This document shows, piece by piece, positions 14,568 through 61,098 of a stretch of 64,000 nucleotides of DNA. Location: NCBI RefSeq assembly GCF_003233655.1, contig NZ_CP029829.1, positions 754,978-818,977 of the forward strand. The letters are read 5' to 3'. Position numbers and translations under genes: made by a program. Position 1 is the first letter of the stretch. Each line of letters begins with the position of its first letter. Source of the DNA: Azospirillum ramasamyi (GTDB taxonomy: Bacteria; Pseudomonadota; Alphaproteobacteria; Azospirillales; Azospirillaceae). Under the pieces are notes generated by a model. That model was not told where the DNA came from. It did no database searches and saw nothing but the letters and a program-made list of their open reading frames with translations.

Positions 14568-14575
14568 GGTCGGTG

Positions 14576-26353: not shown

Positions 26354-26407
26354 TTCATTGTTTGCAGAGCAAGAGCTCGGGGGATAATTGACGAAGGTGC
26401 CAGCGCC

Positions 26408-27157
26408 ATGCCCAAGCATGCCATGCCCACGCTCTGGAACCGGATGAAAGCCGAACTGGGCGACGCCGACGCGCAGTACCTGCTCGCCGAATCGCTGCGG
26501 CCGGAGGATGTCGCCGCCGCGGTTCCCTGGTATCGGCGCGCGGCGCGCCAGGGCCATGTCGCCGCCCAGACCATGCTGGCCTTCCTGCTCGCCAACGGCA
26601 TCGGCGTGCCGCCCGATCCGGGCCGGGCGGTGTCCTGGTACCGCCGCGCCGCCGCCAAGGGCGATGTCGGAGCGCAGAACAACCTCGGCTACATGCACGA
26701 GCATGGCGCCGGCGTGCCGTGCAACCCGGCCAAGGCGGCGCTGTGGTACCGGCTGGCCGCCCTGCAGCAGTCGGCCCCCGCCCAGGTCAACCTCGCCCTG
26801 CTTCTGCTCGACGGCCGCGGGGTGGACCGGGACGAGGCGGAAGCCGTGCATTGGCTGCGCGCCGCCGCCGGGCAGGGGCACCCCGCCGCGCAATACCGCC
26901 TCGCCCTGTGCCTGCGCGAAGGCGTCGGCACCGTGCGCGACCCGGCCGAGGCTGCGCTGTGGATGCAGGCCGCCGCCGCCGCCGGCGACCGCGATGCGCT
27001 GGCGGCGCTCGCCAACCTGAGCGCGGCATCCGATGAGGCCGCCGATGAGGCCGCCGAGGACGGCGAAGGCTTGGAGGAGGAGGCGGTCGGCTGGCAGCAT
27101 CAGGCGGAACGGCGCCCCATGGAGGGCGCCCATGCCGGAGCGATGCCGCCGGGCTGA
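26408..27157 (+). CDS. Sel1-repeat protein in the T6SS locus
   Basis: The 249-residue protein consists of about five Sel1-like repeats of roughly 36 residues each. Recurring blocks include AVPWYRRAARQGH, AVSWYRRAAAKGD, ALWYRLAALQQS and AVHWLRAAAGQGH. No signal peptide is present, so it should be cytoplasmic. The last 50 residues are acidic and low in complexity. Sel1 proteins act as adaptors in protein complexes. It is read away from tssJ and towards the methyltransferase gene at the end of the tssA unit; its role in secretion is an inference from location. Confidence 0.85.
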   Translation: MPKHAMPTLWNRMKAELGDADAQYLLAESLRPEDVAAAVPWYRRAARQGHVAAQTMLAFLLANGIGVPPDPGRAVSWYRRAAAKGDVGAQNNLGYMHEHGAGVPCNPAKAALWYRLAALQQSAPAQVNLALLLLDGRGVDRDEAEAVHWLRAAAGQGHPAAQYRLALCLREGVGTVRDPAEAALWMQAAAAAGDRDALAALANLSAASDEAADEAAEDGEGLEEEAVGWQHQAERRPMEGAHAGAMPPG

Positions 27158-46300: not shown

Positions 46301-47563
46301 ATGAAGCTGCGCCTGACCCTGATCCAATGCCCGCCCGCCCAGGGCGGCGACATCGCCCGCGATCTCGGCACCGGACGGTTGGTGATCGGCCGCGGTCCCG
46401 ACTGCGACTGGGTGCTGAACGACCCGGAGCGGATGCTGTCCAAGACCCATTGCATGGTGGAGTTCAAGGGCGGCGTCTACATCGTCATCGACAGTTCCAC
46501 CAACGGCGTCTTCCTGAACGACGCGCCGACCCCCATCGGCCGCGGCAACTCCGCCGTGGTGGGGGAGGGCGACCGGCTGCGGATGGGCGGCTTCGTCATG
46601 CGCGCCGGCTTCGCCGCGGAGGAGGCGCCGCCCGCCAACGACCCCTTCCTGGCGGTCCTGCGCGGTTCCGGCGAAACGGCGCAGTCGTCGGCGGCCTCGC
46701 CCGAGGAGGATCCCTTCGCCCTGCCGGCCTTCGGCCGTGGGCCGGTGTCGGTGATGCCGATCCCCGACGACGACGACCTGTTCGGCGACCTGCCGAAGCC
46801 GGACGACCGTTGGGGCGGCAAGCCGGGTGGCAATTCGGGCGGTGGCTGGCAGCCAACCGCAGCCGGAAACACGCCGGGCGGCGATCCCGATTGGCCGGGT
46901 TCCGCCCAGACCGACTTCTCGCCGGACAGCCTCGGCACCATCCGGGTATCGACCGAACAGGCGGGCTTCGGCCATGGCAATGGCGGAACGTCGATCCCCG
47001 ACGATTGGCTCGACGATCCGGTCGAACTGACGCCGGCCGCCCAGCCGTCCGGCCCGCCGCCCGTCCAGCCCTTCGCGGCGCAGCCGGCCGCCCCGTCCGC
47101 AATTCCGGCCGCCACCCCGCCTGCCGATTGGGCCGCCGACTGGAACGAGGAGCCGCTGGTCCCGCCGGCCTTCGGTGCGCGTCCGTCGACCTCCACCCCT
47201 CTGGCCGACGAGGCCTCCGACGCGCTCAGCCTTGCGCTGGTCGATGCCGTGCTGTCGCTGGTGCGGCGGCAGGCGGCGCTTGAGGCGCTGCTCGGCCTCG
47301 ACCCGGACGAGACGATGGCGCAGGGGGACTCGATCCTGCGCCGCGCCGTGGATGCCGACGACGCGCTGGCCCGCCTGCGCGCCCTGCCGCCCGCCGAGGC
47401 GGAGGCGCTGCTGCAGGCGGCGGTGTCCGACGGTGCGGCCCATCAGTCGGCCCTGCTGGCGGCGGTGCGCGAGCTTACCGGAGAGACCGCCGACGGCGGC
47501 ACCCGGCTGGCCGCGCTGTACCGCCGGCTCCTGCCGATCCACCGCCACGCGCTGGGCGGCTGA
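46301..47563 (+). CDS. TagH-type FHA-domain protein of the T6SS
   Basis: The first ~100 of 420 residues form a forkhead-associated domain, with GRLVIGRGPDCDWVL, SKTHCMVEF and STNGVFLND holding the phosphothreonine-binding Arg, Ser, His and Asn. A long Pro/Gly/Asp-rich disordered linker follows (about 105-305). A C-terminal helical domain follows (ALSLALVDAVLSLVRRQAALE onward) typical of T6SS FHA proteins. In other bacteria this protein is the substrate of PpkA and turns on secretion. It starts four bases after the gene upstream. Confidence 0.92.
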   Translation: MKLRLTLIQCPPAQGGDIARDLGTGRLVIGRGPDCDWVLNDPERMLSKTHCMVEFKGGVYIVIDSSTNGVFLNDAPTPIGRGNSAVVGEGDRLRMGGFVMRAGFAAEEAPPANDPFLAVLRGSGETAQSSAASPEEDPFALPAFGRGPVSVMPIPDDDDLFGDLPKPDDRWGGKPGGNSGGGWQPTAAGNTPGGDPDWPGSAQTDFSPDSLGTIRVSTEQAGFGHGNGGTSIPDDWLDDPVELTPAAQPSGPPPVQPFAAQPAAPSAIPAATPPADWAADWNEEPLVPPAFGARPSTSTPLADEASDALSLALVDAVLSLVRRQAALEALLGLDPDETMAQGDSILRRAVDADDALARLRALPPAEAEALLQAAVSDGAAHQSALLAAVRELTGETADGGTRLAALYRRLLPIHRHALGG

Positions 47564-47579: not shown

Positions 47580-47621
47580 ATGGCAACGACCATCAGCCTG
47601 CAAGAGGGAAAGCGCCCATGA
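47580..47621 (+). CDS. 13-residue leader ORF ahead of tssK
   Basis: GGAGGAGGG (47566-47574) is the strongest ribosome site in the locus and lies five bases ahead of an ATG opening a 13-codon frame (MATTISLQEGKRP). Its TGA overlaps the tssK ATG as ATGA. It probably serves translational coupling of tssK; whether the peptide itself matters is unknown. Confidence 0.45.
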   Translation: MATTISLQEGKRP

Positions 47622-48952
47622 GTTGGGACGACAAGGTCATCTGGTCCGAAGGCATGTTCCTGCGGGCGCAGCATTTCCAACAGCAGGACCGCTATGTCGA
47701 GCGGCTGGTGCGCGGCCGCGTCGCCGGCATCCGTCCCTTCGCCTGGGGCATCAGCGAACTCACCATCAACCGCGAGCTTCTGGCCGTCGGCAAATTCGCC
47801 GTCCTGCGCTGCAAGGGCATTCTGGAGGACGGGACGCCGATCAACATCCCCGACGACGACGACCCGCCGCCGCCGCTCGACCTGCCGGAGACGCTGGCGA
47901 ACAGCATCGTCTATCTGGCCCTGCCGGTCCGCCAGCGCGGCGGCGTGGAGTTCGAGGTGGGCGAGAGCGCCGACGCCGCCACCCGCTATGTCGGCGAGGA
48001 GACGGAGACGGTCGACGCCATCGCCGGGTCGGCCAGCGTGTCGCGCATCCGCACCGGGCGCCTGCGCCTGCGCTACCGGCTGGAACGGCAGGAGCGCGCC
48101 GGCTACCACTGCCTTGGCCTCGCCCGCATCCAGGAGGTGCGCTCCGACCGCCACGCCACGCTGGACGAGCGCTACATCCCGCCGGCCCTGAACGTCCAGG
48201 CGCTGGCGCCGCTGGCCGGCTTCGTCACCGAGATCCAGGGACTGCTGAACAGCCGGTCGGAGGCCCTGGCCGCCCGCGTCGGCGGCTCCAACGGGCGCGG
48301 CGCCGGCGAAATGGCCGATTTCCTGATGCTGCAGGTCGCCAACCGCTCCGAACCGTTGTTCGCCAACATCGCCCGCATGCCCGACATCCACCCGGAACGG
48401 CTGCACGGCATGATGCTGGGGCTGGCCGGCGAACTGGCGACCTTCACCGCCGTCAACAAGCGTCCGCCCAGTTTCCCGCCCTACCGGCACGAGGATCTGC
48501 AGGGCACGCTGGAGCCGGTGATGGCGGAGATCCGCCGTTCGCTGAGCGCCGTGCTGGAACAGACCGCCATCCCCATCGATCTGCAGGAGCGCAAATACGG
48601 CATCCGCGTCGGCACCATCGCCGACCGTTCGCTGATCACCACGGCGACCTTCGTGCTGGCGGTGCGGGCGGACATGCCGGGCGAGGCGTTGCGCCGCAAC
48701 TTTCCGGCGCTGGTGAAGATCGGCCCGGTGGAGCAAATCCGAGAGCTGGTCAATGTACAGTTGCCCGGAATCCGAGTAAGGCCATTGCCGGTCGCTCCGC
48801 GCCAACTGCCCTACCACGCCGGTGCCGTGTATTTCGAGCTCGAACGCGGTAGCCCTATTTGGAAACAGCTTGCAACATCGGGCGGAATCGCGGTTCATCT
48901 AGCAGGTGATTTTCCCCAGGTGGCGATGGAGCTTTGGGCGATCCGTGGCTGA
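47618..48952 (+). CDS. tssK: TssK, T6SS baseplate adaptor
   Basis: The 444-residue protein is TssK/VasE. It opens with VIWSEGMFLRAQHFQQQDRY, where the LRPQHFQ-like motif is conserved, and has the later DIHPERLHGMMLGLAGELATF and YRHEDLQGTLEPVMAEIRRSL stretches (each with normal variation). TssK links the baseplate to the TssJLM membrane complex. Its start codon overlaps the stop of a 13-codon leader ORF. The multi-sensor operon begins 30 bases after its stop, so both may share a transcript. Confidence 0.96.
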   Translation: MSWDDKVIWSEGMFLRAQHFQQQDRYVERLVRGRVAGIRPFAWGISELTINRELLAVGKFAVLRCKGILEDGTPINIPDDDDPPPPLDLPETLANSIVYLALPVRQRGGVEFEVGESADAATRYVGEETETVDAIAGSASVSRIRTGRLRLRYRLERQERAGYHCLGLARIQEVRSDRHATLDERYIPPALNVQALAPLAGFVTEIQGLLNSRSEALAARVGGSNGRGAGEMADFLMLQVANRSEPLFANIARMPDIHPERLHGMMLGLAGELATFTAVNKRPPSFPPYRHEDLQGTLEPVMAEIRRSLSAVLEQTAIPIDLQERKYGIRVGTIADRSLITTATFVLAVRADMPGEALRRNFPALVKIGPVEQIRELVNVQLPGIRVRPLPVAPRQLPYHAGAVYFELERGSPIWKQLATSGGIAVHLAGDFPQVAMELWAIRG

Positions 48953-48982: not shown

Positions 48983-49741
48983 ATGAGGCTGGGCGGGGTG
49001 CTGGCCCTGCGCACCGGCGCCGTTATCGCGGCGACGGTTGCGACCGCCGTTCTGTTGTCGGTCGCGCTGTCCGAACTGAAGTTCGAACAGAAATTGCGCG
49101 AGGTCACCGGTTCCCGCCTCATGGTGGTGGCGGACGAGATGCGGAGACGGGTCGAATACGGCCTGACGCTGGGGCTCGACCTCTCCGAACTGGTCGATCT
49201 GCAGGCGCAGGCCGAACGCGCCGCCTCCGGCGAGGAAATCCTCGGCGTCGAGGTGGTGGACGACCGCGGCATCATCCTGTTCGCCGCCGACCGCAACGCT
49301 GTCGGACAGCCCACGCCGGTGCGTTGGAGCGGCGACGCTTCCGCCGGCACCCTGCGGCAGCAGATCGACGGCGACGTCCTGATCCTCGGTTCCGACGTGC
49401 GCAACAGCTTCGGCCAGACGGTGGGGCAGGTGATCCTGCGCTCTTCCCTGGCCGGGCTGAAGGCGCGGGTCGCGGCGGTCGAGGAGGGGTTGCGCGGCAA
49501 CATCCTGGCGCTGGTGGGGGGCGCCGCGCTGGTGACGCTGGCCGCCGTCTTCGTCGTGGTGCGGCAGGGCGGCGGGCGCGGCGGGTTGGCGGCCGGCACC
49601 GCGCCGCTGGGCATGGTGCGCGACCGGCTGAACCACGGCATCGCCGACGCCGATCACGCCATGGAAGAACTTGAACGCGAATTGGATGCCGTGGCGCCGA
49701 ATGCCCCCGGACCACTCCCGGCGAAGGGCGTGGTGACATGA
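48983..49741 (+). CDS. Two-TM protein with extracytoplasmic sensor-like domain
   Basis: A 252-residue protein: TM helix near 12-32, a periplasmic domain of about 135 residues, and a second TM near 170-195. A short cytoplasmic tail ends in an acidic amphipathic helix (DHAMEELERELDAV). The periplasmic part has RRRVEYGLTLGLDLSELVDL and VEVVDDRGIILFAADRNAVG, the pattern of a small Cache/PAS-like sensor that recurs in the genes at 49.7, 53.8, 54.6 and 56.1 kb. There is no kinase, cyclase or HAMP-plus-output, so it may sense for a partner protein. First gene after tssK; stop overlaps the next start (ATGA). Confidence 0.72.
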   Translation: MRLGGVLALRTGAVIAATVATAVLLSVALSELKFEQKLREVTGSRLMVVADEMRRRVEYGLTLGLDLSELVDLQAQAERAASGEEILGVEVVDDRGIILFAADRNAVGQPTPVRWSGDASAGTLRQQIDGDVLILGSDVRNSFGQTVGQVILRSSLAGLKARVAAVEEGLRGNILALVGGAALVTLAAVFVVVRQGGGRGGLAAGTAPLGMVRDRLNHGIADADHAMEELERELDAVAPNAPGPLPAKGVVT

Positions 49742-51897
49742 GCGGTCCGGCCCGCAACGGCTCCTCCGATCAGGCCAACCATCAGGCCAGCAATCCGGCC
49801 AAGCGGCGCGACCCGATCAGCGCGCTGGTTCTGCGGCTGACCATCGTCACGGTCGCGGTGCTGCTGCTGGCGGCCGGTGCGGCCTCCTGGCTGTCGCTGC
49901 GCGGATTCGACCCGCTGTTCCAGCCCGAACTGGCGCGCAAGGCGCAGACGGTCGGCGGCCTGATGGGAGCGCAGATCGACCGCGGGCTCGGCGTCCGCAT
50001 TCCGCTGGACCGCATGGCCGGTCTCGACGCCCTGCTGGAGGCGGAGGTCCGACGCCACGACGACATCGCCTACATCGCGGTGACCGACCCCGCCGGTCGC
50101 ACCGTCGCGGCGGCGGGCGGGCCGCTGGACGGCCTCACCGCCCTGTCGCCGGACCGGCTGAGCGGCCCCGCCGACGGTCGGCTGGCCCGCGGCTTCGTCG
50201 ATGTCCAGCGCCCGCTGGGCGACGCCGCCGACCCGGCCGGCGCGCTGCATGTCGGCGTCGACAGCGCCTATCTGGCCAAGGCCTCGACCGATCTGGCTCT
50301 GGACGTGCTGTCGGTGGTCATCGTCTCCGTCCTGCTGATCTTCGAGGTGCTGCAGCTGGTGGTGAACCTCGCCATGCGGCGGGTGCTGACCCTGCGGCTG
50401 CTGGCCGATCGGGCGGAGCAGGGGGATTTCCGCGCCACCCTGCCGGAGATTCCGGGTCCACTCGCGGCGCGGGAGGACCGGGCGCTGGAGAGCGGCGTGC
50501 GCGCGGCGCTGGACGGCGTCAACGCCCGCTATGCCGGCCTCGCCGCGCGGGTGGCGGAGCTGCGCCGCCGGCTGGGCGGCGACGACCCGCGGGTCGGCCG
50601 GGCGGAGGCCGGGCTGTCGGCGCTCGCCCGCCGCTTCCGCTTCCGCGATCCGGACACCGCGCATCCGCCGACGCCGCCGCTGAACCTCGTCTTCCTGAGG
50701 CTGCCGGTTTTCCTGTTCTGCCTGTCGGAGGAGCTGTCGCGCCCCTTCCTGCCGGCCTATGCCAAGTCCTTCGCCGGCGAGGTGCCGTGGCTGACGCCGG
50801 ACATGGTGGTCAGCCTGCCGATCACGCTGTTCATGCTGATCTGGGCGCTGTCGCAGCCGGGCGGCGCCCGTTTCTCCGAGCGCTGGGGCCGGTCGCGCGC
50901 CTTCACCATCGGCGCCCTGCTGGGCTCCGTCAGCCTCGCGCTGACCGCCTTCGCCGGGTCGCTGGCCGAACTGATGCTGTGGCGCTGCCTGACCGCGCTC
51001 GGCTACGGGCTGGTGCTGATCACCGCGCAGGGCATCGTCGTCGACCACACCACGCCGCGCAACCGCGCCGCCGGCATGGCGATGTTCATCGGCGCGCTGC
51101 TGGCCGCCGGCGTCTGCGGCCCGGTCAGCGGCGGCATCATCGCCGACCAGATCGGCTTCCGCGCCACCTTCCTGCTGGGTGCGCTTCTGGCCCTGGGCTC
51201 CGGCCTGTCGGTCAGCCTGCTCCTGCTGCGCGGCCGTGGAGCGGGGCAGTCCGCTGCCGGCGCCGGTGCCGCGGCCCGGCCGGCGATGGGCAGCGCCCTG
51301 CCGCTGTTCCGCGACTTCCGCTTCTCCGCCCTGATGGTGCTGAGCGCCATCCCGACCAAGATCGCCTCGACCGCCTTCCTCTTCTGCCTCGTGCCGCTGC
51401 TGCTGACCGCCGACGGCGCGTCGAAGGCGGAGATCGGGCGGGTGCAGATGATGTATTTCGTCGCCTTCATCCTGGTGTCGCCGCTGGCCGCCAGCCTGTC
51501 CGACCGCTGGCAGGCGCGGCGCGGCTTCATCGCCGCCGGCGGCATCGGCACGCTGGCGAGCTGCCTGCCCATCCTCGCCACCCAGTCGCTGTGGGGGCCG
51601 CCGCTGGCCATCGCCCTGTTCGGTCTGTCCCAGGCCCTGGTCGGCGCGCCGCAGCTGACCCTGGTCTCGCAGATCGCCCGCGACGGCGGCCTGCCCGAGA
51701 CCGCGGCGATCGGCTGGTACCGGCTGATCGAACGGCTGGGCGGCGCGCTCGGCCCCGTCACCGCGATGGCGGTGGCGGTCGCCACCTCCTACCGCGAGGC
51801 GATGCTGAGCATCGGCCTGCTGTGCGGGGCGAGCGCGCTTCTGTTCTGGATCCTTTTCCGCACCGGGCGCCCGGCCGCCCGGCCACAGGAGGCATGA
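49738..51897 (+). CDS. MFS transporter fused to an N-terminal sensor module
   Basis: The 719-residue protein has two parts. Residues 1-310 repeat the sensor layout: TM near 28-50, a periplasmic domain with IDRGLGVRIPLDRMAGLDALL and VTDPAGRTVAAAG, a TM near 180-206, and a HAMP-like linker. Residues ~318-710 form an MFS transporter of about twelve helices, with a motif A-like ARFSERWGRSRAF and GFRATFLLGALLAL. A transporter joined to a transduction-type sensor is unusual; the substrate is unknown. It could import or export in response to the signal, or act as a transceptor. ATGA overlap with the gene before. Confidence 0.82.
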   Translation: MSGPARNGSSDQANHQASNPAKRRDPISALVLRLTIVTVAVLLLAAGAASWLSLRGFDPLFQPELARKAQTVGGLMGAQIDRGLGVRIPLDRMAGLDALLEAEVRRHDDIAYIAVTDPAGRTVAAAGGPLDGLTALSPDRLSGPADGRLARGFVDVQRPLGDAADPAGALHVGVDSAYLAKASTDLALDVLSVVIVSVLLIFEVLQLVVNLAMRRVLTLRLLADRAEQGDFRATLPEIPGPLAAREDRALESGVRAALDGVNARYAGLAARVAELRRRLGGDDPRVGRAEAGLSALARRFRFRDPDTAHPPTPPLNLVFLRLPVFLFCLSEELSRPFLPAYAKSFAGEVPWLTPDMVVSLPITLFMLIWALSQPGGARFSERWGRSRAFTIGALLGSVSLALTAFAGSLAELMLWRCLTALGYGLVLITAQGIVVDHTTPRNRAAGMAMFIGALLAAGVCGPVSGGIIADQIGFRATFLLGALLALGSGLSVSLLLLRGRGAGQSAAGAGAAARPAMGSALPLFRDFRFSALMVLSAIPTKIASTAFLFCLVPLLLTADGASKAEIGRVQMMYFVAFILVSPLAASLSDRWQARRGFIAAGGIGTLASCLPILATQSLWGPPLAIALFGLSQALVGAPQLTLVSQIARDGGLPETAAIGWYRLIERLGGALGPVTAMAVAVATSYREAMLSIGLLCGASALLFWILFRTGRPAARPQEA

Positions 51898-51902
51898 CCG
51901 CG

Positions 51903-52976
51903 ATGGGATTGGACGAAAGCGATCTGCTCCGCATCCGCCGCCGCTCGCTGCTGCGCCTTGCCGCCGCCGGCGGGCTGGCCCTGCCCGGACTGCCGCTGGC
52001 CGGCGGGTCTCTGATCGGCTCGGCGCTGGCCGCCACGGCTCCCGACAGGACCTTCCGCATCACCATGGTGCTGGGCCGCGGCGAGAGCGACAACGAATTC
52101 GGCTTCAAGGATTATCTGGCCCGGCGCGGCCTGAAGGTGGAGTACACCATCCGCAACACCGGCGGAGACACAGCCAAGCTTCCGGGCATCATCCAGGAGA
52201 TCAAGGATACCCGCCCCGACCTCGTCTACAGCTGGGGCACGCCGCAGACCCGCGCGCTGGTCGGCCCCCATGACGAGGCGGACCCGCGCAAGCACGTCAC
52301 CGACATCCCGGTGGTCTTCACCTTCGTCGCCGCCCCGGTGGATGCGAAGATCGTGCCCGATCTCGCCCGGTCGGGGCGCAACGTCACCGGAACCATCCAC
52401 ATCGCGCCGATCGCGGTGCAGCTCAACACCATCCAGGCCTATCGCACGATCAAGCGGCTGGGCGTGGTCTACAACCCTCAGGAACGCAACTCCGTCCTCA
52501 CCATCGAGGGGCTGCGGGCGGAGACCGCGCTGCGCGGGCTGGAACTGATCGAGGAGCCGGTCCCCCTGAACGACCGCGGCGAGCCGATCGCCGCCGCGGT
52601 GCCCGACGCGCTGGGCCGGGTGGCGAGGCGCGGGGGCGAGGTGCTCTATATCGGCCCCGACACCTTCATCGCCTTCCACAACCGCAGCGTCGTGGCGGCG
52701 GAGGCGTTGCGCCTGGGCCTGCCGACCTTCTCGGTGACCGAACTGATCGTGCGCACCGACAAGGCGATGCTGGCTCTGGCGAGCAGCGCCTACGGCATCG
52801 GCCGCTTCACCGCCTTCAAGGCGGCGCAGATCCTGGTGGACGGCGTCAGTCCGGCGGAAATTCCCGTGGAAACGCTGAAGCGCTTTTCCGTCATCATCAA
52901 CATGGCCACGGTCCGGGCGCTGGAATACTACCCGCCGATCGGGCTTCTGAATTTCGCGGAAATCATCGAATCATGA
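51903..52976 (+). CDS. ABC-type substrate-binding protein with Tat signal
   Basis: The ~357-residue product starts with a twin-arginine signal (IRRRSLLRLAAAGG...AATA) for folded export. It then has the two-lobed fold of the ABC substrate-binding family often next to signalling genes (PF04392 type). FRITMVLGRGESD, RPDLVYSWGTPQT, PVVFTFVAAPVDAKIV and KRLGVVYNPQERNS are typical blocks. No ABC permease or ATPase gene is nearby, so it probably hands its ligand to a sensor. AGGAGG is ten bases ahead of the ATG at 51903; the ATG at 51894, overlapping the previous stop, is too close to that site. Confidence 0.85.
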   Translation: MGLDESDLLRIRRRSLLRLAAAGGLALPGLPLAGGSLIGSALAATAPDRTFRITMVLGRGESDNEFGFKDYLARRGLKVEYTIRNTGGDTAKLPGIIQEIKDTRPDLVYSWGTPQTRALVGPHDEADPRKHVTDIPVVFTFVAAPVDAKIVPDLARSGRNVTGTIHIAPIAVQLNTIQAYRTIKRLGVVYNPQERNSVLTIEGLRAETALRGLELIEEPVPLNDRGEPIAAAVPDALGRVARRGGEVLYIGPDTFIAFHNRSVVAAEALRLGLPTFSVTELIVRTDKAMLALASSAYGIGRFTAFKAAQILVDGVSPAEIPVETLKRFSVIINMATVRALEYYPPIGLLNFAEIIES

Positions 52977-53788
52977 GCGCCCGCATTCCCATGACGATGC
53001 CGTTCGGCGGCGCTCCCCTGTGCGGCGAGGCCGCCCGCGCGGTGGCCGCCGTCCGCCTGAGGACGCTGGCCGCCGATCTGCCGGACGGGTTGACCGTCCG
53101 CATGATGGACCTGGACGATTCCAACCTGCTGGCCGATTTCCGCGTCCGCGTGGTGGCGACGCTGGAGGATCCCGACCATTACCGCATGGCGGGCGAGGTC
53201 GGGAACTTCGTCACCGACCATCTGGGCGACCGGGGGCTGACCGCCGGCATCTTCCGGCAGGATGGGCGCTCAGGCACCCGTCTGGTCGCCTACGGCGCGC
53301 TGGGCCTGCCGTCCGGCGACGATCCCAACCGGGGCCGCGACCTCGACCTGCCGGAAGCGGAACTGCCCTGGGTCGCGCACATGTCGTCGGCTATGGTCGA
53401 TCCGTCGGAGCGCGGGCGCGGCCTGCATCACCGTCTGATCGACTGGCGGATCGAGGTGGCGGAGGCGCTGGGCCGCCGGCACCTGATCACCACCGTCAGC
53501 ACCCGCAACCACCGCAGCTGGGGCCATCTGGCCGGTCACGGCATCTATCCGAAGCGGCTGGTGCGCGTCGGCGGCGATCTGGTCCGGCTGCTGGTCCACC
53601 GCGACTTCACCGCCGATCCGGTCTTCGACACCGCCAGCGCCGAACTGGTGGCTGTCGAGGATTTGGTCGGGCGCTGGGACGTGTTCGAGCGCGGCCATGT
53701 CTGGGGCCGCGTCGCCGTCGGCGAGGGCGCCGCGCTGCGCTGGTACGCGCTGTGCGGCCGGGAAAAGGGCTCCGCTGGAGCGGCATGA
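52973..53788 (+). CDS. GNAT-family N-acetyltransferase
   Basis: The 271-residue protein has the acetyl-CoA-binding motif A (SERGRGLHHRLIDWRIEVAE) and the following HLITTVSTRNHRSWGHLAGHG segment of GNAT enzymes, at about residues 140-190. The N-terminal ~120 residues carry TVRMMDLDDSNLLADFRVRV. The target cannot be named. Its ATG overlaps the stop of the binding-protein gene, so it belongs to the operon. It could modify a protein of the signalling path or a ligand, but there is no direct sign of which. Confidence 0.78.
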   Translation: MSARIPMTMPFGGAPLCGEAARAVAAVRLRTLAADLPDGLTVRMMDLDDSNLLADFRVRVVATLEDPDHYRMAGEVGNFVTDHLGDRGLTAGIFRQDGRSGTRLVAYGALGLPSGDDPNRGRDLDLPEAELPWVAHMSSAMVDPSERGRGLHHRLIDWRIEVAEALGRRHLITTVSTRNHRSWGHLAGHGIYPKRLVRVGGDLVRLLVHRDFTADPVFDTASAELVAVEDLVGRWDVFERGHVWGRVAVGEGAALRWYALCGREKGSAGAA

Positions 53789-53845
53789 CGGGACGGGGCC
53801 GGGCGGGCGCTGAGGCGCGCGGCCGGCTGAAGGGGGATGGCCGGA

Positions 53846-54637
53846 ATGGGATCGGGGAGTTTCGGGGCGCGGCTGGCGGCGTTCGTGGCGGTGGCGGTGT
53901 TCGTCGCCGCGCTGTCCGCCGTCGTGCTGTGGACGAGCGAACAGGCGCGCCGCCTGGACGAGGCCGTGACCTCCCAGGTCGGCTTCGTGCTGAGCGAGGC
54001 CAAGGCGTCGCTCGAAACCCAGCTGAACCTCGGCCTCGCCCTGGGCGACCTGCCGCAGGTCGACGGGCTGCTGTCCCGCGCCCGTACCGCCCTTCCCGGC
54101 ATCCAGTCCGTCACCGTCCTGGACGAGACCGGCACCGTTCTGTTCTCCACCAACGCGGTGGAGGTGGGTGAACTTCTGCCCGTCCGCACCGGGGCCGAAG
54201 CCGGTTCCGGCGTCAGCGGCTTCTGGTCGGAGGAGCGCGGGGGCGAGCGGGTCTACGGCGTCGGTCTCGCCACCAGCTTCGATACGGCGGCCGGCAGCCT
54301 GCTGGTCCGCATGCCGGCCGGCGCGATGGCCGAGCCGATGCGCCACTACGCCCTGACCCTCTCCATCGGCGCGGTGCTGATCGCGCTTCCGCTGGCCCTG
54401 CTGGGCTGGCTGGCCGGTCTGCGGCTTGCCGCCGGGCCGCGCCGCTCGCTGGCCGACCTCGCCACCACCCTCGAAGGGCTGGGGGAGGGCGGGCGGGTCC
54501 GCGCCGAGCCGTCGGCGCAATCGCCGCAGCAGACATTGGGGCTGCCGGCCGCCGCCTTCACCGACGCGGTGCGGCGGCGCCTGACCATCCTGGACGAGGC
54601 GGAGCGCGAAGTCGCACGCCTGGACGAACTCGCATGA
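53846..54637 (+). CDS. Two-TM protein with sensor-like domain, no output
   Basis: A 263-residue protein with TM segments near 10-30 and 168-192. The periplasmic domain contains KASLETQLNLGLALGDLPQV and VLDETGTVLFSTNAVEVG, the clearest copy of the shared sensor pattern. The cytoplasmic part (about 70 residues) is HAMP-like at first and ends in a charged helix (LDEAEREVARLDELA). No enzymatic output is present. GGGGG nine bases ahead supports the ATG at 53846; an ATG at 53837 abuts that site. The stop overlaps the next start (ATGA). Confidence 0.72.
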   Translation: MGSGSFGARLAAFVAVAVFVAALSAVVLWTSEQARRLDEAVTSQVGFVLSEAKASLETQLNLGLALGDLPQVDGLLSRARTALPGIQSVTVLDETGTVLFSTNAVEVGELLPVRTGAEAGSGVSGFWSEERGGERVYGVGLATSFDTAAGSLLVRMPAGAMAEPMRHYALTLSIGAVLIALPLALLGWLAGLRLAAGPRRSLADLATTLEGLGEGGRVRAEPSAQSPQQTLGLPAAAFTDAVRRRLTILDEAEREVARLDELA

Positions 54638-56091
54638 CGACCCGCAGTGCCTCCCGCAATGCCTCCCATGGCCCTTACCGCGGCCCTTCCGGCGGCAATC
54701 GCCTGTTCATGGCCGGCATTCCGGCCGTCATCCTGCTGGCGGCCGCGCTGGCGATGGCCGGCGTCGGGCTGCTCGGCACCTGGCTGGCTCAGGACCAGCT
54801 GGGAGAGGCGCGCGCCGCCAAGGCCGCCGCGGTGGCGGAGGCGGTTCAGCACGATCTGGAGCGCGCCATCGCCTACGGCATTCCCCTGCCGCGCATCGAA
54901 GGGGTCGGGACCTTCCTTCAGGGCATTGCCGGCCGCAACCCGGACCTGGGCTTCCTGGCGCTGACCGGCGGCGACGGGGTGCTGCTGCAGGGGGCGGTGA
55001 ATGCCGGCGGCGGCATCGACGCCGCGGGACTGCAGGCGCTGACCGCCGGACTGAGCGGTCTGCCGACGCCGGAAACCCGGGCGGCGACCCTCCAGCCGAT
55101 CGAGCGCGACGGCCTTCTGATCCTGCGGGTGCCGGTTCGGGTCGGCCGGCTGTCGTCCGAGGGCGGCGGCGGGGTGGGCAATCAGCCGGCCGGCCATGTG
55201 CTGGTCGGCGTCCAGCCGCAGCAGGTGCGCGGCCAGATCGCCGGGGAATTGGCGACGGTGGCGCTGGGCGGGCTGGCGGTTCTGCTGCTGTTGGCCGAGC
55301 TGGCCGGCGTTCTGGCCCGCGCCAGCTTCCGTGCGCCGCTGCGCCGTCTCGCCCTGGCGATGGAGGAGGCGGTGGACGGGCGCTTCGCCACCCTGCTGGG
55401 CCGCCGTCCGCGCGATCAGGTCGGCCGGCTGCTGTTCGCCTTCAATGCCGTCGTCTTCGGCCTGCACGACCGCCGCCAGCGCTTCGCCGCCCATGCCGAC
55501 GAGGTGCGCGCCGCCGTTTTCGATCCGGAGGTCGCGTCCGCCGTCGAAACCACGCGGCTGTCGGCGCTGACCGCCCTCGGCCCCGGGCTGGAGGCGCCGC
55601 CGCGGCGCGAGATCGATGCCCGGTCCGACGATGTCCATGCCTTCGCCCTGCTGTCCGCATCGGCGGCGGCGATGCTGGTTTCCGGCTGCGGGCCTGCCGT
55701 CGCCGGTCCGGCGCTGGCCGCCGCATTGGCCGGCGCGTTCGCCGGCTATGCCGTTCCCTTCGGCTGGCGCCGTGTCGCGGCGGTGTCGGGCGCGCTGGTG
55801 CTGGCCTCCGCGGCGGCCGTGCTGCTGCTCTGCGGCGCCCCGCTGGCGGCCGGGCTGGCCGGCGGATTGGCGGGCGGTTCCGCCGCCGGGCTGGCGCTGT
55901 CCTATGGGCGCCGGCAGGCCGCCGACGGCGGGCAGTTCCCGCTGCTGCGGGCGCTGTGCTCCGGGATCGCCGCGGCCCTGCTGTGGGCGGCGGCGGTCGG
56001 CTGGGACGGCGGAATGCTTGCCGCATCGTCGCTGCTGCCCGCCGTGCTGGCGGCACTGCTGGCCCGCCCCATCGTCGTTCTGCGGAGTTGA
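54634..56091 (+). CDS. Sensor-like protein with polytopic C-terminal region
   Basis: The 485-residue protein starts with the sensor layout: TM near 24-50, a periplasmic domain with VQHDLERAIAYGIPLPRIEG and GRNPDLGFLALTGGDGVLL, TM near 205-230, then a HAMP-like linker. Unlike its neighbours it continues with about 150 strongly hydrophobic Ala/Gly/Leu residues that could form five or six membrane helices. I do not recognise that part as a known transporter. It may be a membrane signalling partner of the phosphatase encoded next. Confidence 0.68.
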   Translation: MTTRSASRNASHGPYRGPSGGNRLFMAGIPAVILLAAALAMAGVGLLGTWLAQDQLGEARAAKAAAVAEAVQHDLERAIAYGIPLPRIEGVGTFLQGIAGRNPDLGFLALTGGDGVLLQGAVNAGGGIDAAGLQALTAGLSGLPTPETRAATLQPIERDGLLILRVPVRVGRLSSEGGGGVGNQPAGHVLVGVQPQQVRGQIAGELATVALGGLAVLLLLAELAGVLARASFRAPLRRLALAMEEAVDGRFATLLGRRPRDQVGRLLFAFNAVVFGLHDRRQRFAAHADEVRAAVFDPEVASAVETTRLSALTALGPGLEAPPRREIDARSDDVHAFALLSASAAAMLVSGCGPAVAGPALAAALAGAFAGYAVPFGWRRVAAVSGALVLASAAAVLLLCGAPLAAGLAGGLAGGSAAGLALSYGRRQAADGGQFPLLRALCSGIAAALLWAAAVGWDGGMLAASSLLPAVLAALLARPIVVLRS

Positions 56092-56100
56092 GAGGCCCCG

Positions 56101-58254
56101 ATGCTGCTTCAGACCCGCATCATCCTGTTCGTCCTCGCCACCGTCACCGTGGTGGCCGGCCTTCTCCTCGGCTTCGCCGCGCTGCGCGAGGATGCCCTCG
56201 ACCGCCGTGCGCGCGAGCTGGAGCTGGAGCGCCTCGAAACCTCCTGGCAGCTGGCGGTGTCGGGCGCCGTCGGGCGCATCGACCAGGGGCTGGGCCGTCT
56301 GGCGGGCGACGCCGAGATCGCCCGCGCGGTGGAGGGGGAGGAGCGCGGCGCGTTGGACCGCCGCGTCGCGGCGCTCGGCGTCGTTACCGCGCCGGCCACC
56401 GGTGGGATCACCGACGTCAACCTGCTGTCGAAGTCGGGGGAGCTGCTCTACAGCACCGATCCGGCGCTGGAGCCGGAACCGCTGCTGAACCGCGGCGCGC
56501 TCGACGCCATCCTGTCCGGCCAGAAGCTGGCGCGCGGCGTCCGTCTGGTCGACGGCGAACGTCTGGTCGTGGTCGCCGGCGTGCCGATCTATGCCGGGAC
56601 CGGGGCCGGCGGCGGGCAGGGCAGCGGGGCCGGCGTGACCGGCGCCGCCGTCGCCGGGCTGGATTTCGTCGCCGCGCTGGACGTGCTGCGGCGGACCACC
56701 GGCGGGCGCGTCTTCGCCGTGACCCGCAACGGCGCCGCCTTCGACGGGGAAAGCGATCCGCTGTGGCCGGCGGTCAAGCCGCTGGTCCGTCCGGCGGAAC
56801 GCAGCATCACCACCGTCGCCGGCGGCGGGCGCCGCTATGCGCTGGCCAGCCTGCCGGTCGCCGATCTTGCCGGCGGACGCGTCGCCACGGTGCTGATCGC
56901 CAGCGACGTCACCCAGGCGGTGGAGGAGCAGGCGCTGTGGTCGGTCGCCTATGTCGCGGCGGTCGGGCTGGTGCTGCTCGGCGCGCTCGGCCTGCTCTAC
57001 GGTTTCCTGCGGCGGAACTTCTCCACGCTGGACGGCGCGGTGAAGGCTCTGCAGGATCTCTCGCGCGGACGCGCCATGGGCTATGTCGAGCTGCCGGCCG
57101 GCAATGACGAGATCGGCCGCATCGCCGGAGCGGTGGAGGTCTTCCGTGGCGTGATGCGCGAGATCGAGCGCAGCGCCGGCCAGCGCGAGCGCCGCCTGCG
57201 CCGCCAGCAGCGCTTCATCCGCCGCCAGATGGAGGCGCTGGCCGTCACCCTGGAGGAGGACGCCCGCCAGAACCTGCTGGAGGAGCTGCGCCAGATCGAG
57301 GCGGAAACCCACGATGCCCAGTCCGCCCAGTCCAAGGGCGTCGGCGACGAGCTGGGGCTGCTGGCGCTGGGCTTCTCGCGGCTGGCGACGCGGGTCAGCA
57401 CCCAGCAGGTGCAGCTGACCCAGATGGTGCGCGACCTGCGCGAGGCGTTGGAGGACAAGCGGCGGCTGATCAGCCTGCAGCAGGAGCTGGAGATCGCCCG
57501 CACCATGCAGCTGACCATCCTGCCGCAGGTCTTCCCCGATCTGCCGGAACTGGACATCGCCGCGCGGATGATCCCGGCGAAGGAGGTCGGCGGCGATTTC
57601 TACGATTTCTTCCCGATTTCCGAACACAAGGTGGCGCTGGTCATCGCCGATGTGTCCGGCAAGGGCATCCCGGCCGCCTTCTTCATGCTGATCACCCGCA
57701 CCATGCTGCGCGCCATCGCCGAATCCGGCGTCGGTCCGGCGGAAACCATGCGCCGGGTCAACAACCTGCTCGCCGCGGAGAACGAGCAGATGATGTTCGT
57801 CACCGTCTTCTACGGCGAGCTGGACCTGCGCACCGGCGTGCTGGCCTTCTCCAACGGCGGTCATAACCCGCCGCTGCGCATGACCGCGTCGGGCGCGGTG
57901 AAGGAGTTTGAGCGCACCCCCGGCATCGCCCTGGCCGCCATGCCCGACATGCCCTTCGGCGAAAAGAGCGTGACGCTGGACACCGGCGACATGGTCGTTC
58001 TGTTCACCGACGGCGTGACCGAGGCCTTCAACGGTGAAGAGGTGATGTATGGCGACCCCCGGCTCGTTGCCGCGGTCGCCGGGCAGAGCAGCGCCTCGGC
58101 ACGCGACGGGTTGGACGGGGTGTTGGCCGATGTCGCCCGTTTCACCGCAGGCGCGCCGCAGTCCGACGACATCACGTGTCTGGTCCTGCGCTGGCGCGGG
58201 GCGGCGGACGCGCCGGCCGCCATCCTGGCGCAGCAGGCCGATCCCGTCGCCTGA
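56101..58254 (+). CDS. Membrane-bound SpoIIE/RsbU-type phosphatase
   Basis: The 717-residue protein has TM helices near 7-27 and 278-303 around a periplasmic sensor domain (VNLLSKSGELLYSTDPALE). A HAMP domain (about 305-360) and a long charged coiled coil (360-460) follow. The PPM/SpoIIE phosphatase domain carries EVGGDFYDFF, VIADVSGKGIPAAFFM, LFTDGVTEAF and DDITCLVLR, whose aspartates bind the metal pair. Such enzymes dephosphorylate STAS antagonists in partner switching. A STAS gene follows 132 bases downstream and an RsbW-like gene lies beyond the T6SS. Catalytic residues look intact. Confidence 0.92.
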   Translation: MLLQTRIILFVLATVTVVAGLLLGFAALREDALDRRARELELERLETSWQLAVSGAVGRIDQGLGRLAGDAEIARAVEGEERGALDRRVAALGVVTAPATGGITDVNLLSKSGELLYSTDPALEPEPLLNRGALDAILSGQKLARGVRLVDGERLVVVAGVPIYAGTGAGGGQGSGAGVTGAAVAGLDFVAALDVLRRTTGGRVFAVTRNGAAFDGESDPLWPAVKPLVRPAERSITTVAGGGRRYALASLPVADLAGGRVATVLIASDVTQAVEEQALWSVAYVAAVGLVLLGALGLLYGFLRRNFSTLDGAVKALQDLSRGRAMGYVELPAGNDEIGRIAGAVEVFRGVMREIERSAGQRERRLRRQQRFIRRQMEALAVTLEEDARQNLLEELRQIEAETHDAQSAQSKGVGDELGLLALGFSRLATRVSTQQVQLTQMVRDLREALEDKRRLISLQQELEIARTMQLTILPQVFPDLPELDIAARMIPAKEVGGDFYDFFPISEHKVALVIADVSGKGIPAAFFMLITRTMLRAIAESGVGPAETMRRVNNLLAAENEQMMFVTVFYGELDLRTGVLAFSNGGHNPPLRMTASGAVKEFERTPGIALAAMPDMPFGEKSVTLDTGDMVVLFTDGVTEAFNGEEVMYGDPRLVAAVAGQSSASARDGLDGVLADVARFTAGAPQSDDITCLVLRWRGAADAPAAILAQQADPVA

Positions 58255-58282
58255 GCCCAAAAAAATCATTAGGGGTTGCTGC

Positions 58283-58314
58283 CCGGTCCGACGGCGAATG
58301 CATCGTCGGACCGG
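58283..58314. terminator. 11-bp hairpin after the phosphatase gene
   Basis: CCGGTCCGACG pairs perfectly with CGTCGGACCGG around a 10-base loop, 28 bases after the phosphatase stop. No T-run follows on the plus strand. It is a likely terminator or transcript-end stabiliser separating the sensor operon from the STAS gene. Confidence 0.6.
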
Positions 58315-58322
58315 CCAGGGCA

Positions 58323-58331
58323 TGCTATAAT
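58323..58331 (+). promoter_or_regulatory. Extended -10 promoter element for the STAS gene
   Basis: TGCTATAAT is a perfect extended -10 (TGnTATAAT), 55 bases ahead of the STAS start and just after the hairpin. There is no clear -35, as is common for extended -10 promoters. A related TGCTATAAG lies ahead of the next gene at 58773-58781. Confidence 0.5.
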
Positions 58332-58386
58332 CAACGGGCAGGAAAGATCCGGGTAAGAACCGGCTAATGCTAGGTGAGGGCAGGGG

Positions 58387-58725
58387 ATGAATATTACCGA
58401 ACAGTCGGTCAACGGCGTTACGGTGCTGCGCGCGGACGGCCGCATCGACAGCGGCAACGCCGCGCAGTTCGAGGCGGCGCTGCTGTCGGCCATCGCGGCC
58501 GAGGGCACGCGGCTTGTTGTCGACATGGAACAGCTTTCCTACATCAGTTCTGCCGGGCTTCGCTGTCTGCTGGTCGCCGCCAAGGCGGCCCGGGCGAAGC
58601 GCGGCGCCATTGCGCTTTCGGCCATGGCGCCGCACATTCGTGAGGTATTCGACGTCAGCGGCTTCTCGTCGCTGTTCGAAATCCATGCCGACGCGGCTGC
58701 CGCCGTTGCGGCGCTGGGTGGATGA
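58387..58725 (+). CDS. STAS-domain anti-sigma-factor antagonist
   Basis: The 112-residue protein is a single STAS domain of the RsbV/SpoIIAA kind: VTVLRADGRIDSGNAAQFE, then LVVDMEQLSYISSAGLRCLL with the phosphorylatable serine loop (Ser54 or Ser55). In partner switching the unphosphorylated form binds the RsbW-type ATPase and frees its target; the SpoIIE phosphatase encoded just upstream is the natural activator. Its own extended -10 promoter suggests it can be made separately from the sensor operon. GAGGG lies six bases ahead of the ATG. Confidence 0.92.
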   Translation: MNITEQSVNGVTVLRADGRIDSGNAAQFEAALLSAIAAEGTRLVVDMEQLSYISSAGLRCLLVAAKAARAKRGAIALSAMAPHIREVFDVSGFSSLFEIHADAAAAVAALGG

Positions 58726-58809
58726 AGACGGGACAGGCGTCGGGGGCGTATTCCGCCGGCTGTGGCCGGCCTTGCTATAAGGCGGTTTCCGAAAGGGGCC
58801 GGGCGTGAG

Positions 58810-59208
58810 ATGGAAAGTGCCATTCGGCCAAACATCCTGGTTGTCGAGGACTCACCGGCCGTGCGGCTGTCCGTCGCCGGCTATCTGGAGGGTCGCGGTT
58901 TCGACGTGACCGAGGCGGAGAATGGCCGTGCCGCCATCCGCGCGATGGACCGCCGCAGCTTCGACCTGATCGTCACCGACGTGCTGATGCCGGAGGTGGA
59001 CGGGATCGAGCTGATCAAGGCGGCGCGCAACGCCCAGCCCGACGTGAAGATCCTCGCCATGTCCGGTGGCGCGCCGAACATGCCGGCCGGCTATCTGCTG
59101 AAGATGACGCGCATGTTCAATGCGGATGAAATCATCTACAAGCCCTTCCTCAACGAAGAGTTGGGGGCCGCGGTCGCCCGTCTGCTCGACCGACCGCTTG
59201 TAAATTAA
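58810..59208 (+). CDS. Single-domain response regulator
   Basis: The 132-residue protein is a lone receiver domain with VVEDSP, phospho-acceptor Asp57 (VTDVLMPEVDG), the MSGG switch region and Lys in YKPF. The loop between the last strands is longer than usual (NMPAGYLLKMTRMF). An upstream in-frame start at 58762 would add unrelated residues, so I used 58810. It closes the signalling cluster. It may bring input from a histidine kinase into the partner-switch path; no kinase gene is adjacent. Confidence 0.85.
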   Translation: MESAIRPNILVVEDSPAVRLSVAGYLEGRGFDVTEAENGRAAIRAMDRRSFDLIVTDVLMPEVDGIELIKAARNAQPDVKILAMSGGAPNMPAGYLLKMTRMFNADEIIYKPFLNEELGAAVARLLDRPLVN

Positions 59209-59249: not shown

Positions 59250-59280
59250 GCGGCTTCGGTGCATGAAGCGCCGAAGCCGC
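59250..59280. terminator. 10-bp hairpin after the response regulator
   Basis: GCGGCTTCGG pairs perfectly with CCGAAGCCGC around an 11-base loop, 41 bases after the stop. The T-rich flank (CTTTCTTTTG) is on the minus strand, so as a Rho-independent terminator it fits that strand better, although the gene ends on the plus strand. Confidence 0.55.
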
Positions 59281-59487
59281 AAGTGTTGCGTGGAACCAAC
59301 CGCTTCCTGCTTCGCAATCCTCGTGCCAGAATCCATCCACTGGACCGCCGGCGGCCGGGAAAAATCCGGAACGCCATATGGTCCCTCCTGTTGTTCGGGA
59401 AACGCGGATGTACAGGCGCCGGTGGCCTATGCCAATCGCGCCATGCCGACCGCGGTTCAAGAATCCAACAAGAGGGAGCCGACCACG

Positions 59488-61098
59488 ATGGCGCAGAACG
59501 AGAATCGGTGGCGCGGTCAGGGCCGCGACTGGCGCGACGATGATCGCGAACCCAACCGGCACAGGGATTGGGGCGCGGCGCGGCATGCCGGCGTCTACGA
59601 CCAGGACGATTACCGGTCCACCGAACACGAGAGCATGTATCACCCGCAGGCGCACCTGCACCAGGACGAGCGCGGACACCTCTACCGCGACCCGGGCTAC
59701 AGGGGGCATGTCGGCAACGAATCCGGCGGCTACGGCCCCGAATTCCACATGGACAGCGCCGACAGCCGCGCCGAAAGCCGCCACGACAACGCCCGCGAGA
59801 TGGAGCGGGTCTATGACCGCAGCTTCGGCGGCGGGCGAGGCATCAACCGCGGCGGCTACGGCGCCGGCTATGGCGGGCGGTCCGGGTCGAGCGGCTATGG
59901 CGGTTATGCCGGCGCCGGCAATGCCGGGACGGAAGGCAACTACACCAGCCGCGACGTCGGCAGCGGCGACTATCGCGACCGCGAATATGGCGTGCGCCCC
60001 TATGGCGAAGGCGGGCAGGGCGCCCGCGGCCGCGGTTCGCTGGGCTATGGCGGCCGGGAGTATGGCGAGCGCGAGGGCAGCAGCGACCGCAACTATGCCA
60101 GCCGCGACTACCGCAATCGCGATTACGGCAATCGCGATTACGGGGCTCAGGGTGGTTACGGCAGCGGCTATGGCGGCGGTTACGAATCCGGCCGCGACCG
60201 TGGCGATTGGGAGCGCGGAGACTATGGCCGGCGCGACTACGGCGGCAGTTCCTCTTCCAGCTCAGGTGGCGGCTACAGCGGCAGCTATGAGCGCGACGAA
60301 GGCCGCGACCGCTCCTGGGGCGAGGATCGCGGCGGCATGTACCGTGACCGGGAGATGCGGGGCGGCTACGGCGGCGGCCGCAACGAGCGCTGGGATGACG
60401 ACCGTGGCCGCGCGCGCCAGCGCGGCTTCTGGGAGCAGGCGGGCGACGAGATCGCCTCCTGGTTCGGCGATGACGACGCCGAACGCCGCCGGGCCGAGGA
60501 CGAGCGCCGCGCCTCCCAGCATCGCGGCCGTGGTCCGCGCGGCTACAGCCGCTCCGACGAGCGGGTGCGCGAGGACGTCAGCGACCGCCTGACCGACGAC
60601 GCCTACATCGACGCCTCCGACATCGAGGTGACGGTCAGCGGCGGCGAGGTGACGCTGGCGGGCATGGTCCCCGACCGACGCACCAAGCGCCGCGCCGAGG
60701 ATGTCGCGGAGGCGGTGTCCGGCGTGACCCATGTGCAGAACAACCTGCGCGTCCGCAACCAGGCCGGCAGCCAGGGCGGTTCCAACTGGGGCAGCTCGAC
60801 CGGCGCCGGCGCCTCGGCGATGGCGAATGCGGGGAGCGGTTCGGCTTCCGGCGCCTCGGCCATGGGCGGAACGACGGGCGGACTCCAGGGGAGCGACACC
60901 ACGGCCGGCACCGCTGCCGGTCTCGGCGCCTCCACCGGCAGCGGCACCGGGGCCGCGTCGCCCTCCTCGACCGGCACCGGGGCCGGAGCCAGCGGCGGGC
61001 CTGCCGGCGCTTCCGCCGGGACCGGGTCGATGGCCGGCTCCACCACCGGCATCACCGGCTCCACCGGAGCCAACCGGTCCTCCACCACGCGGAGCTGA
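59488..61098 (+). CDS. BON-domain protein with Gly/Arg/Tyr-rich repeats
   Basis: The 536-residue protein has a hydrophilic N-terminal region and a long low-complexity stretch of Gly, Tyr, Arg and Asp with RDYGNRDYG-like repeats (about 130-310). A short block WEQAGDEIASWFGDDDAERRR and a BON domain follow (about 350-425, including EDVSDRLTDDAYIDASDIEV and a terminal VQNNLRVRN). The tail is a 110-residue Gly/Ser/Thr/Ala tail. BON domains bind membranes or surface ligands and occur in stress proteins such as OsmY. No signal peptide is visible. GAGGGAG supports the ATG at 59488. A terminator follows. Confidence 0.82.
   Translation: MAQNENRWRGQGRDWRDDDREPNRHRDWGAARHAGVYDQDDYRSTEHESMYHPQAHLHQDERGHLYRDPGYRGHVGNESGGYGPEFHMDSADSRAESRHDNAREMERVYDRSFGGGRGINRGGYGAGYGGRSGSSGYGGYAGAGNAGTEGNYTSRDVGSGDYRDREYGVRPYGEGGQGARGRGSLGYGGREYGEREGSSDRNYASRDYRNRDYGNRDYGAQGGYGSGYGGGYESGRDRGDWERGDYGRRDYGGSSSSSSGGGYSGSYERDEGRDRSWGEDRGGMYRDREMRGGYGGGRNERWDDDRGRARQRGFWEQAGDEIASWFGDDDAERRRAEDERRASQHRGRGPRGYSRSDERVREDVSDRLTDDAYIDASDIEVTVSGGEVTLAGMVPDRRTKRRAEDVAEAVSGVTHVQNNLRVRNQAGSQGGSNWGSSTGAGASAMANAGSGSASGASAMGGTTGGLQGSDTTAGTAAGLGASTGSGTGAASPSSTGTGAGASGGPAGASAGTGSMAGSTTGITGSTGANRSSTTRS
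59880..60260 (+). repeat. Low-complexity repeats in the BON-domain gene
   Basis: Degenerate short repeats encode Tyr-Gly and Arg-Asp-Tyr motifs. The cleanest copy is the 15-base unit GGCAATCGCGATTAC in tandem near 60112-60142. Such DNA tends to change length by slippage. Confidence 0.7.

Follow-up and report, generated by a model that had tools for sequence, protein, structure and literature searches.

Gene content and junctions of the locus

A run of nine genes, which we labelled A to I, follows the tssK gene of a type VI secretion system (T6SS) in a 64,000-nt stretch of the genome of the soil bacterium Azospirillum ramasamyi (contig NZ_CP029829.1, positions 754,978 to 818,977). This stretch is referred to below as the window, and coordinates without a locus prefix are positions within it; the labels W and S are also ours. 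The run encodes sensor proteins, a sensor joined to a major facilitator superfamily (MFS) protein, a periplasmic substrate-binding protein, an acetyltransferase, a SpoIIE phosphatase, a STAS antagonist and a receiver (Table 1). An initial annotation, made from the letters alone, had taken these genes for a ligand-sensing machine attached to the T6SS, whose output is dephosphorylation of a STAS protein. All ten genes, tssK included, lie on the plus strand where that annotation had placed them, with the 30-nt gap behind tssK and the four ATGA overlaps (A/B, B/C, C/D and E/F) that it had reported; F and G are 9 nt apart. E is indeed a sensor-only protein as it had proposed, whereas F, to which it gave the same description, consists of a sensor, a HAMP region and a C-terminal hydrophobic block.

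Counting the window, the A/B overlap is an ATGA in 16 of 17 loci and the C/D overlap in 11 of 17, and the E/F overlap has this form in 13 of the 16 loci that have both genes; at B/C it was found in only 3 of 17, with one further locus ambiguous. The spacing between tssK and A is exactly 30 nt in seven of the nine loci that have the two genes. The initial annotation took the overlaps as a sign that the genes are made together. Because the 132-nt gap between G and H holds a 12-bp hairpin, H and I may form a separate or attenuated unit. A promoter scan found zero sigma-70-like sites against 0.5 expected, and says little here.

Table 1. Positions of the genes and other features in the 64,000-nt window
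Feature	Coordinates	Strand	Basis or remark
W, RsbW-like HATPase_c_2 kinase, 147 aa	17808–18251	−	68 nt behind the T6SS kinase gene
T6SS cluster	18320–48952		Pfam: Ser/Thr kinase, TssM, TssL, TssJ, TssG, TssF, TssC, TssA, ClpV, Hcp, VgrG, FHA, TssK
Divergent S–tssJ gap, 243 nt	26165–26407		Homologous to the gap between S and W of six T6SS-less genomes, 73–77% identity
S, Sel1-repeat protein inside the T6SS	26408–27157	+	Sel1, E 1.7e-42; adjoins W in T6SS-less loci
tssK	47618–48952	+	Pfam PF05936, E 7e-160
A, membrane sensor-only protein	48983–49741	+	Related to N-terminal sensors of B, E and F
B, sensor domain + MFS protein	49738–51897	+	MFS_1, E 5e-35; sCache_3_2 weak, E 0.012
C, periplasmic substrate-binding protein, twin-Arg start	51894–52976	+	ABC_sub_bind, E 1e-27
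D, GNAT acetyltransferase	52973–53788	+	GNAT, 21.5 bits (cut-off 20.7)
E, membrane sensor-only protein, relative of A	53837–54637	+	Sequence comparison
F, sensor + HAMP region + C-terminal hydrophobic block	54634–56091	+	HAMP under cut-off
G, sensor–HAMP–SpoIIE phosphatase, RsbU-like	56101–58254	+	SpoIIE, E 3.5e-53
12-bp hairpin in the G–H gap	58283–58314	+	z −2.9
H, STAS antagonist, RsbV-like	58387–58725	+	STAS; motif YISSAGLR
I, single-domain receiver	58762–59208	+	Pfam
13-bp hairpin 3′ of I	59250–59280	+	z −5.7; without T-run on the plus strand

Within the T6SS cluster, the Ser/Thr kinase is encoded at 18320–20491 and the FHA protein at 46301–47563; tssE, tssB, a second tssC and PAAR were named by resemblance only. 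Two methyltransferase-like genes also lie inside the cluster (27180–28721 and 38830–39897).

The probable partner switch and the history of the Azospirillum locus

The output that the initial annotation had proposed is the best reading of G and H on sequence grounds: they appear to form part of a partner switch with a STAS protein as substrate, and a kinase for it was found. The kinase gene, W, lies inside the window and had been missed; about 40 kb separate it from H, with the T6SS between them. W is the genome's best HATPase_c_2 match, and RsbW is its only solved relative by sequence at E < 0.01. Four features of an RsbU/V/W-type switch were found, namely SpoIIE metal motifs (intact in 14 of 15 aligned G proteins, the fifteenth being a broken gene), the STAS phosphoacceptor serine in the H motif YISSAGLR (kept in 21 of 21, once as YMSSAGLR), the HATPase_c_2 N-box of W (26 of 26) and genetic linkage. 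Among 45 Azospirillum genomes, 28 have both W and H at the search cut-offs, two have H only, none has W only and 15 have neither (Fisher 4e-10, kinship ignored), and all 20 genomes with G possess both. Elsewhere in the family, W and H occur together in 10 of 37 genomes, always within 250 bp, and in genomes G047 and G050 they lie next to a SpoIIE domain.

The set thus resembles RsbU/RsbV/RsbW and SpoIIE/SpoIIAA/SpoIIAB in its PPM phosphatase, STAS antagonist, HATPase_c_2 kinase and their defining residues. It differs in having a binding protein and a sensor-MFS protein beside the phosphatase and a T6SS within the locus, and in that no sigma factor was identified (no systematic search). SiaA of Pseudomonas aeruginosa is, like G, a HAMP–SpoIIE membrane phosphatase; G scores 58.9 bits against the SiaA equivalog, far below its cut-off of 700. 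BtrU/BtrV/BtrW of Bordetella go with a type III secretion system rather than a T6SS, and we know of no head of the A–B–C kind there. Those partner-switch proteins are likewise tied to an injection apparatus (PMC8256260). RbaV/RbaW/RbaY of Rhodobacter capsulatus is also an alphaproteobacterial partner switch with no sigma factor found near its genes, but its phosphatase is of the REC–PP2C type, and the part of the account used here has no sensor-MFS or binding protein (PMC3999984).

All 13 genus genomes with an orthologous tssK carry G. tssK was seen to adjoin A in 10 of these 13, and the same was inferred from spacing in G034, G045 and G022; in the basal genome G024, tssK adjoins A and W is on another contig. 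W stands behind the T6SS kinase gene, which ends the operon beginning with tssJ, in 12 of the 13, and in 11 of them S is flanked by tssJ and a methyltransferase gene. S separates W from the next gene in 10 T6SS-less genomes. The T6SS of G013 has no S inside, and W occurs twice in this genome (loci L130 and L144): one copy stands behind the T6SS, the other in a separate W/S/H/I locus.

Comparison of genomes at this site gave a ladder of states. In the window the order is W–T6SS (S inside)–A to I; in G003 it is W/S/A–G/H/I, without the T6SS. Beside W, H and I, other genomes variously retain A–D, only C or none of A–G: between the same flanks we found W/S/A–D/H/I (G031, and similarly G030, across two contigs and with its left flank outside the view), W/S/C/H/I (G033 and G041) and W/S/H/I (G021 and G023). 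Seven T6SS-less genomes have G. In five of them (G003, G012, G017, G042 and G044) W and A are divergently oriented, in G032 W lies behind H, and in G018 it is unlinked. The left flank, a hybrid histidine kinase and a receiver protein (11793–16486), is retained there in reduced genomes, and a BON-domain protein 3′ of I (59263–61098) still adjoins I at reduced loci.

Several T6SS-less loci bear scars of the secretion genes. A homologue of the S–tssJ gap precedes W in six of 12 T6SS-less loci compared; thus, in these six genomes, W occupies the place at which tssJ begins in genomes with the T6SS. In five of the 12, the last tssK codons (MELWAIRG and the stop) can still be read in altered form: they precede A in three genomes (G003, G030 and G031), C in G033 and H in G023. 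The T6SS losses marked by these scars affect G003 and a clade of six genomes (G021, G023, G030, G031, G033 and G041). All six also lack E, F and G and have kept W, S, H and I. No scar was found in G012, G017, G042 or G044. In the basal genome G018, H (L129) is divergent from tssL, tssM and kinase genes (47–62% identity), and there is no tssK match at E ≤ 1e-20. Taking the scars together with the genus tree (built from best tblastn matches, with many genes missing), the sequences indicate that the T6SS was lost in the genus, at least twice, and was not merely gained. The idea that the T6SS was inserted into an older switch locus was dropped in view of the tssK and tssJ scars and of T6SS genes at loci outside the genus.

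The proposed A–B–C head and loci outside the family

Sequence alignment shows A and E to be related to each other and to the N-terminal parts of B and F. A Cache fold for A was set aside, with one of 37 members of the A protein family matching at E < 0.05 (Pfam). B has 120 homologues at E ≤ 1e-30. The twin-Arg start of C is present at 16 of 16 genus loci and at 7 of 15 other loci checked. Against the TrpX equivalog C scores 90.4 bits, short of the cut-off of 390; its solved relatives by sequence are 3lkv, 6hni and 3lft, which we take to include aromatic-amino-acid binders. Enzymes adjoining B–C in relatives are of the GNAT, ATP-grasp, D-Ala-D-Ala-ligase-like, alanine racemase, formyltransferase and ketopantoate-hydroxymethyltransferase types. 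Because of the solved relatives of C and these linked enzymes, the ligand may be amino-acid-like.

Natural fusions join these parts: A with B in L058 (and likewise, judged by eye, in P0102), an MFS protein with a C-type binding-protein domain in P0117, and an F-like sensor, HAMP and SpoIIE in a single open reading frame (ORF) of L195. A further candidate fusion, P0113, was set aside, its middle part reading out of frame. A–D-like clusters with an ATP-grasp gene were also seen at L053 (11840–18937), L055 and L068, and L053 additionally carries a 7TMR-DISM hybrid kinase and a response regulator.

C was found in 24 of 385 genomes of the class (E ≤ 1e-30) and in 9 of 398 of the phylum (E ≤ 1e-35). 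The surroundings of C were compared in 25 of 28 non-family genomes with a match, of which 22 came from the class search and six more from the phylum search (G363, G440 and G087 were left out). G was counted only when the match reached its SpoIIE domain and B only when it reached the MFS part, and T6SS genes were sought by tblastn with Azospirillum queries; absences at these loci are weak, because several end at contig ends, and some loci share a genus. B accompanies C at 21 of the 25, SpoIIE-type G at 10, W at 7, H at 6 and T6SS genes at 5 (L192 and L210 to L213). G and T6SS genes coincide only in L192, and 11 loci have neither in the stretch fetched. W and H occur only at loci having G: W and/or H was found at 7 of the 10 with SpoIIE-type G and at 0 of the 15 without (Fisher 2.5e-4, kinship ignored), so that the linkage of G, H and W recurs outside the family. 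With five G-matching places in this 6.3 Mb genome, the chance of a SpoIIE gene within 20 kb is about 2%. In L208, which comes from another class, W, E, G, D, B, C and H were matched and A and F were not. In L185 (15980–18163) and L186 (1758–3941), a G-like gene with sensor and HAMP has a class III cyclase at its end, in the place of SpoIIE (assigned by Pfam in L185 and by likeness in L186); the neighbours of this gene are A–B–C–D, an ATP-grasp-like gene and E–F, and H and W are absent. A Sel1-repeat gene lies between an A-like gene and C in L193 (8509–9438), as S is a Sel1-repeat gene here.

The T6SS-linked loci take several forms. In L192, A–B–C and SpoIIE are followed by clpV, hcp and vgrG. 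L211 and L213 have, in one direction, B–C, vgrG, a DUF6931 gene, PAAR, tssA, tssB and tssC, with an A-like ORF before B, and L210 and L212 have clpV, B, C, FHA, tssJ, tssK, tssL and tssM, with an uncharacterised gene between C and FHA in L210. In the family of G762, which belongs to another class, C is present in 15 of 150 genomes (three of them also part of the phylum-wide count) and in all 15 lies between B and a T6SS gene, vgrG in four and FHA in 11, the latter with one uncharacterised gene in between; L210 to L213 exemplify the T6SS clusters around it. Two Hcp-family genes lie near C in each of L057 and L187 (Pfam; only these loci were inspected for Hcp in this way), and a DUF4280 gene near C in L057 and L068, the last of which also has clpV and vgrG. 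Attachment to a T6SS, as claimed in the initial annotation, is therefore borne out by A–B–C or B–C beside T6SS genes in other classes and by the scars in T6SS-less Azospirillum loci, which point to an old link in the genus; judged from sequence, the linkage is real and old.

The idea of a single fixed machine did not hold. A–B–C occurs with a T6SS, with SpoIIE, STAS and kinase genes, with both or with neither, as the counts at the 25 loci, the partial sets in genus genomes and the replacement of SpoIIE by a cyclase in two distant loci show, and it is not one indivisible machine. The initial annotation had named the separate occurrence of the genes elsewhere as evidence against itself, and the search for the gene order in other genomes found this in part, because the set splits into varying combinations across loci. 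No paper with this gene set was found among the matches listed from the open-licence literature; the initial annotation had stated that it knew of no described system with this mix.

Proposed mechanism and alternatives

Gene content, motifs, junctions, linkage, co-occurrence, T6SS scars and fusions are established by sequence. The switch part (G, H and W) rests on well-known chemistry and the head part (A–B–C) on linkage and fusions. Because the head accompanies a T6SS in one class, the switch in a second class and the two together in this locus, its most likely role is to feed a ligand signal to either of them. The reading that we favour, to which we give about an even chance, is that A–B–C is a ligand-sensing head recurrently wired to T6SSs and, in alphaproteobacteria, mainly to an RsbU/V/W-type switch, with both present in this locus. 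The scheme that we infer from it extends to the ligand, the direction of signalling, contact of A–D with E–G, the target of W and H, and control of the T6SS. C would capture a small, perhaps amino-acid-like ligand in the periplasm and present it to B, working with the sensor A, and the head would act on the T6SS as a trigger or regulator. When the signal is present, E–F and G would be activated, G would dephosphorylate H at the serine of YISSAGLR, and dephosphorylated H would capture W, freeing the target held by W, or H itself; when it is absent, W would rephosphorylate H. The likely use here would be to set T6SS production or firing along with other targets.

A number of observations weigh against this reading. 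The sensor folds and the Cache naming of the sensors are weakly supported by sequence. A Pfam scan of window proteins showed neither a sigma factor nor any other target of W or H, though linked sigma factors were not sought systematically. The G gene is broken in G035, by rearrangement, since it lies in three separated pieces (query residues 1–81, 85–572 and 608–705, in L143, L142 and L132). T6SS-linked B–C loci of the other class lack G, H and W in the stretches seen. Furthermore, nine of the 10 non-family SpoIIE-type loci show no T6SS gene in the stretch fetched, this T6SS is missing from seven of the 20 genus genomes with G (six of which have no tssK match at E ≤ 1e-20), and W, H and I persist where the T6SS and G are both gone. 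These last three findings would also be expected if the partner switch were independent of the T6SS and the secretion genes were neighbours without a control link. We regard that alternative as doubtful, yet to be taken seriously; the T6SS linkage of C in 15 of 15 genomes of another class's family, the scars of an old link in Azospirillum and the place of W behind the tssJ-to-kinase operon in 12 of 13 T6SS-bearing genomes speak against it.

Alternatively, A–B–C, with or without D, could be a transport cassette without a sensor, in which the binding protein feeds the MFS carrier or recaptures an exported compound, and G, H and W would answer to E and F only. The full MFS match in B, the enzymes beside B–C in relatives and the presence of A–D without G, H or W in G004, G010, G036 and G043 are in its favour, but the kinship of the sensors of A and B with those of E and F, and the linkage of G or its cyclase-type counterpart at 12 of the 25 loci, make it unlikely. 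That C belongs to the ABC_sub_bind superfamily would fit a vestigial importer of the ABC type for an aromatic amino acid, with the remaining genes as passengers; since no ABC permease or ATPase gene is in the operon (no such Pfam domain in A–G) and C goes with B at 21 of 25 loci, this seems highly improbable. The T6SS kinase and FHA genes, and the lack of a PP2C phosphatase among the T6SS ORFs scanned with Pfam, would fit a role of G in which it stands in for PppA, the phosphatase that is missing here from the T6SS threonine-phosphorylation pathway, and does not act on H. Six genus genomes that have G, H and W and no tssK match at the above cut-off leave this role very unlikely.

The ligand-sensing head that we favour may be compared with TagQRST of the Pseudomonas T6SS, a transporter-like trigger that activates PpkA and starts secretion via kinase and Fha, according to the passages on it in a 2023 review of T6SS regulation (PMC10482370). 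Both systems place periplasmic and transporter-like proteins in a T6SS cluster; in those passages TagTS is ABC-transporter-like (PMC10482370), whereas here an MFS protein and an ABC_sub_bind protein are found. A–G contain no TagT/TagS ABC transporter pair, and the likeness is one of role only. None of the terms partner switch, STAS, SpoIIE, major facilitator and substrate-binding occurs in the main text of the review. A bolder proposal, which we advance only tentatively and consider rather unlikely as a whole, is that A–B–C is a new class of ligand-gated T6SS trigger, a counterpart of TagQRST made of an ABC_sub_bind protein and a sensor-MFS protein, in at least two classes of the phylum. In alphaproteobacteria this head would have been connected to interchangeable output modules, either SpoIIE together with STAS and kinase proteins or a class III cyclase. 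Azospirillum would combine head, switch and T6SS in one locus, so that the partner switch would control the T6SS; the enzymes linked to B–C may make the ligand, an amino-acid-like signal.

In summary, our analysis completed a partner switch, including its kinase, for a plant-associated genus and uncovered a binding-protein and sensor-MFS pair that is repeatedly placed in T6SS gene clusters. Should B and C transport together, they would form a binding-protein-dependent MFS system, of which we know no other example. The occurrence of parts of the set in T6SS clusters of distant bacteria suggests an undescribed ligand-sensing route there and, if A–B–C does read a ligand, a direct test of the signal by which these secretion systems start would become possible.

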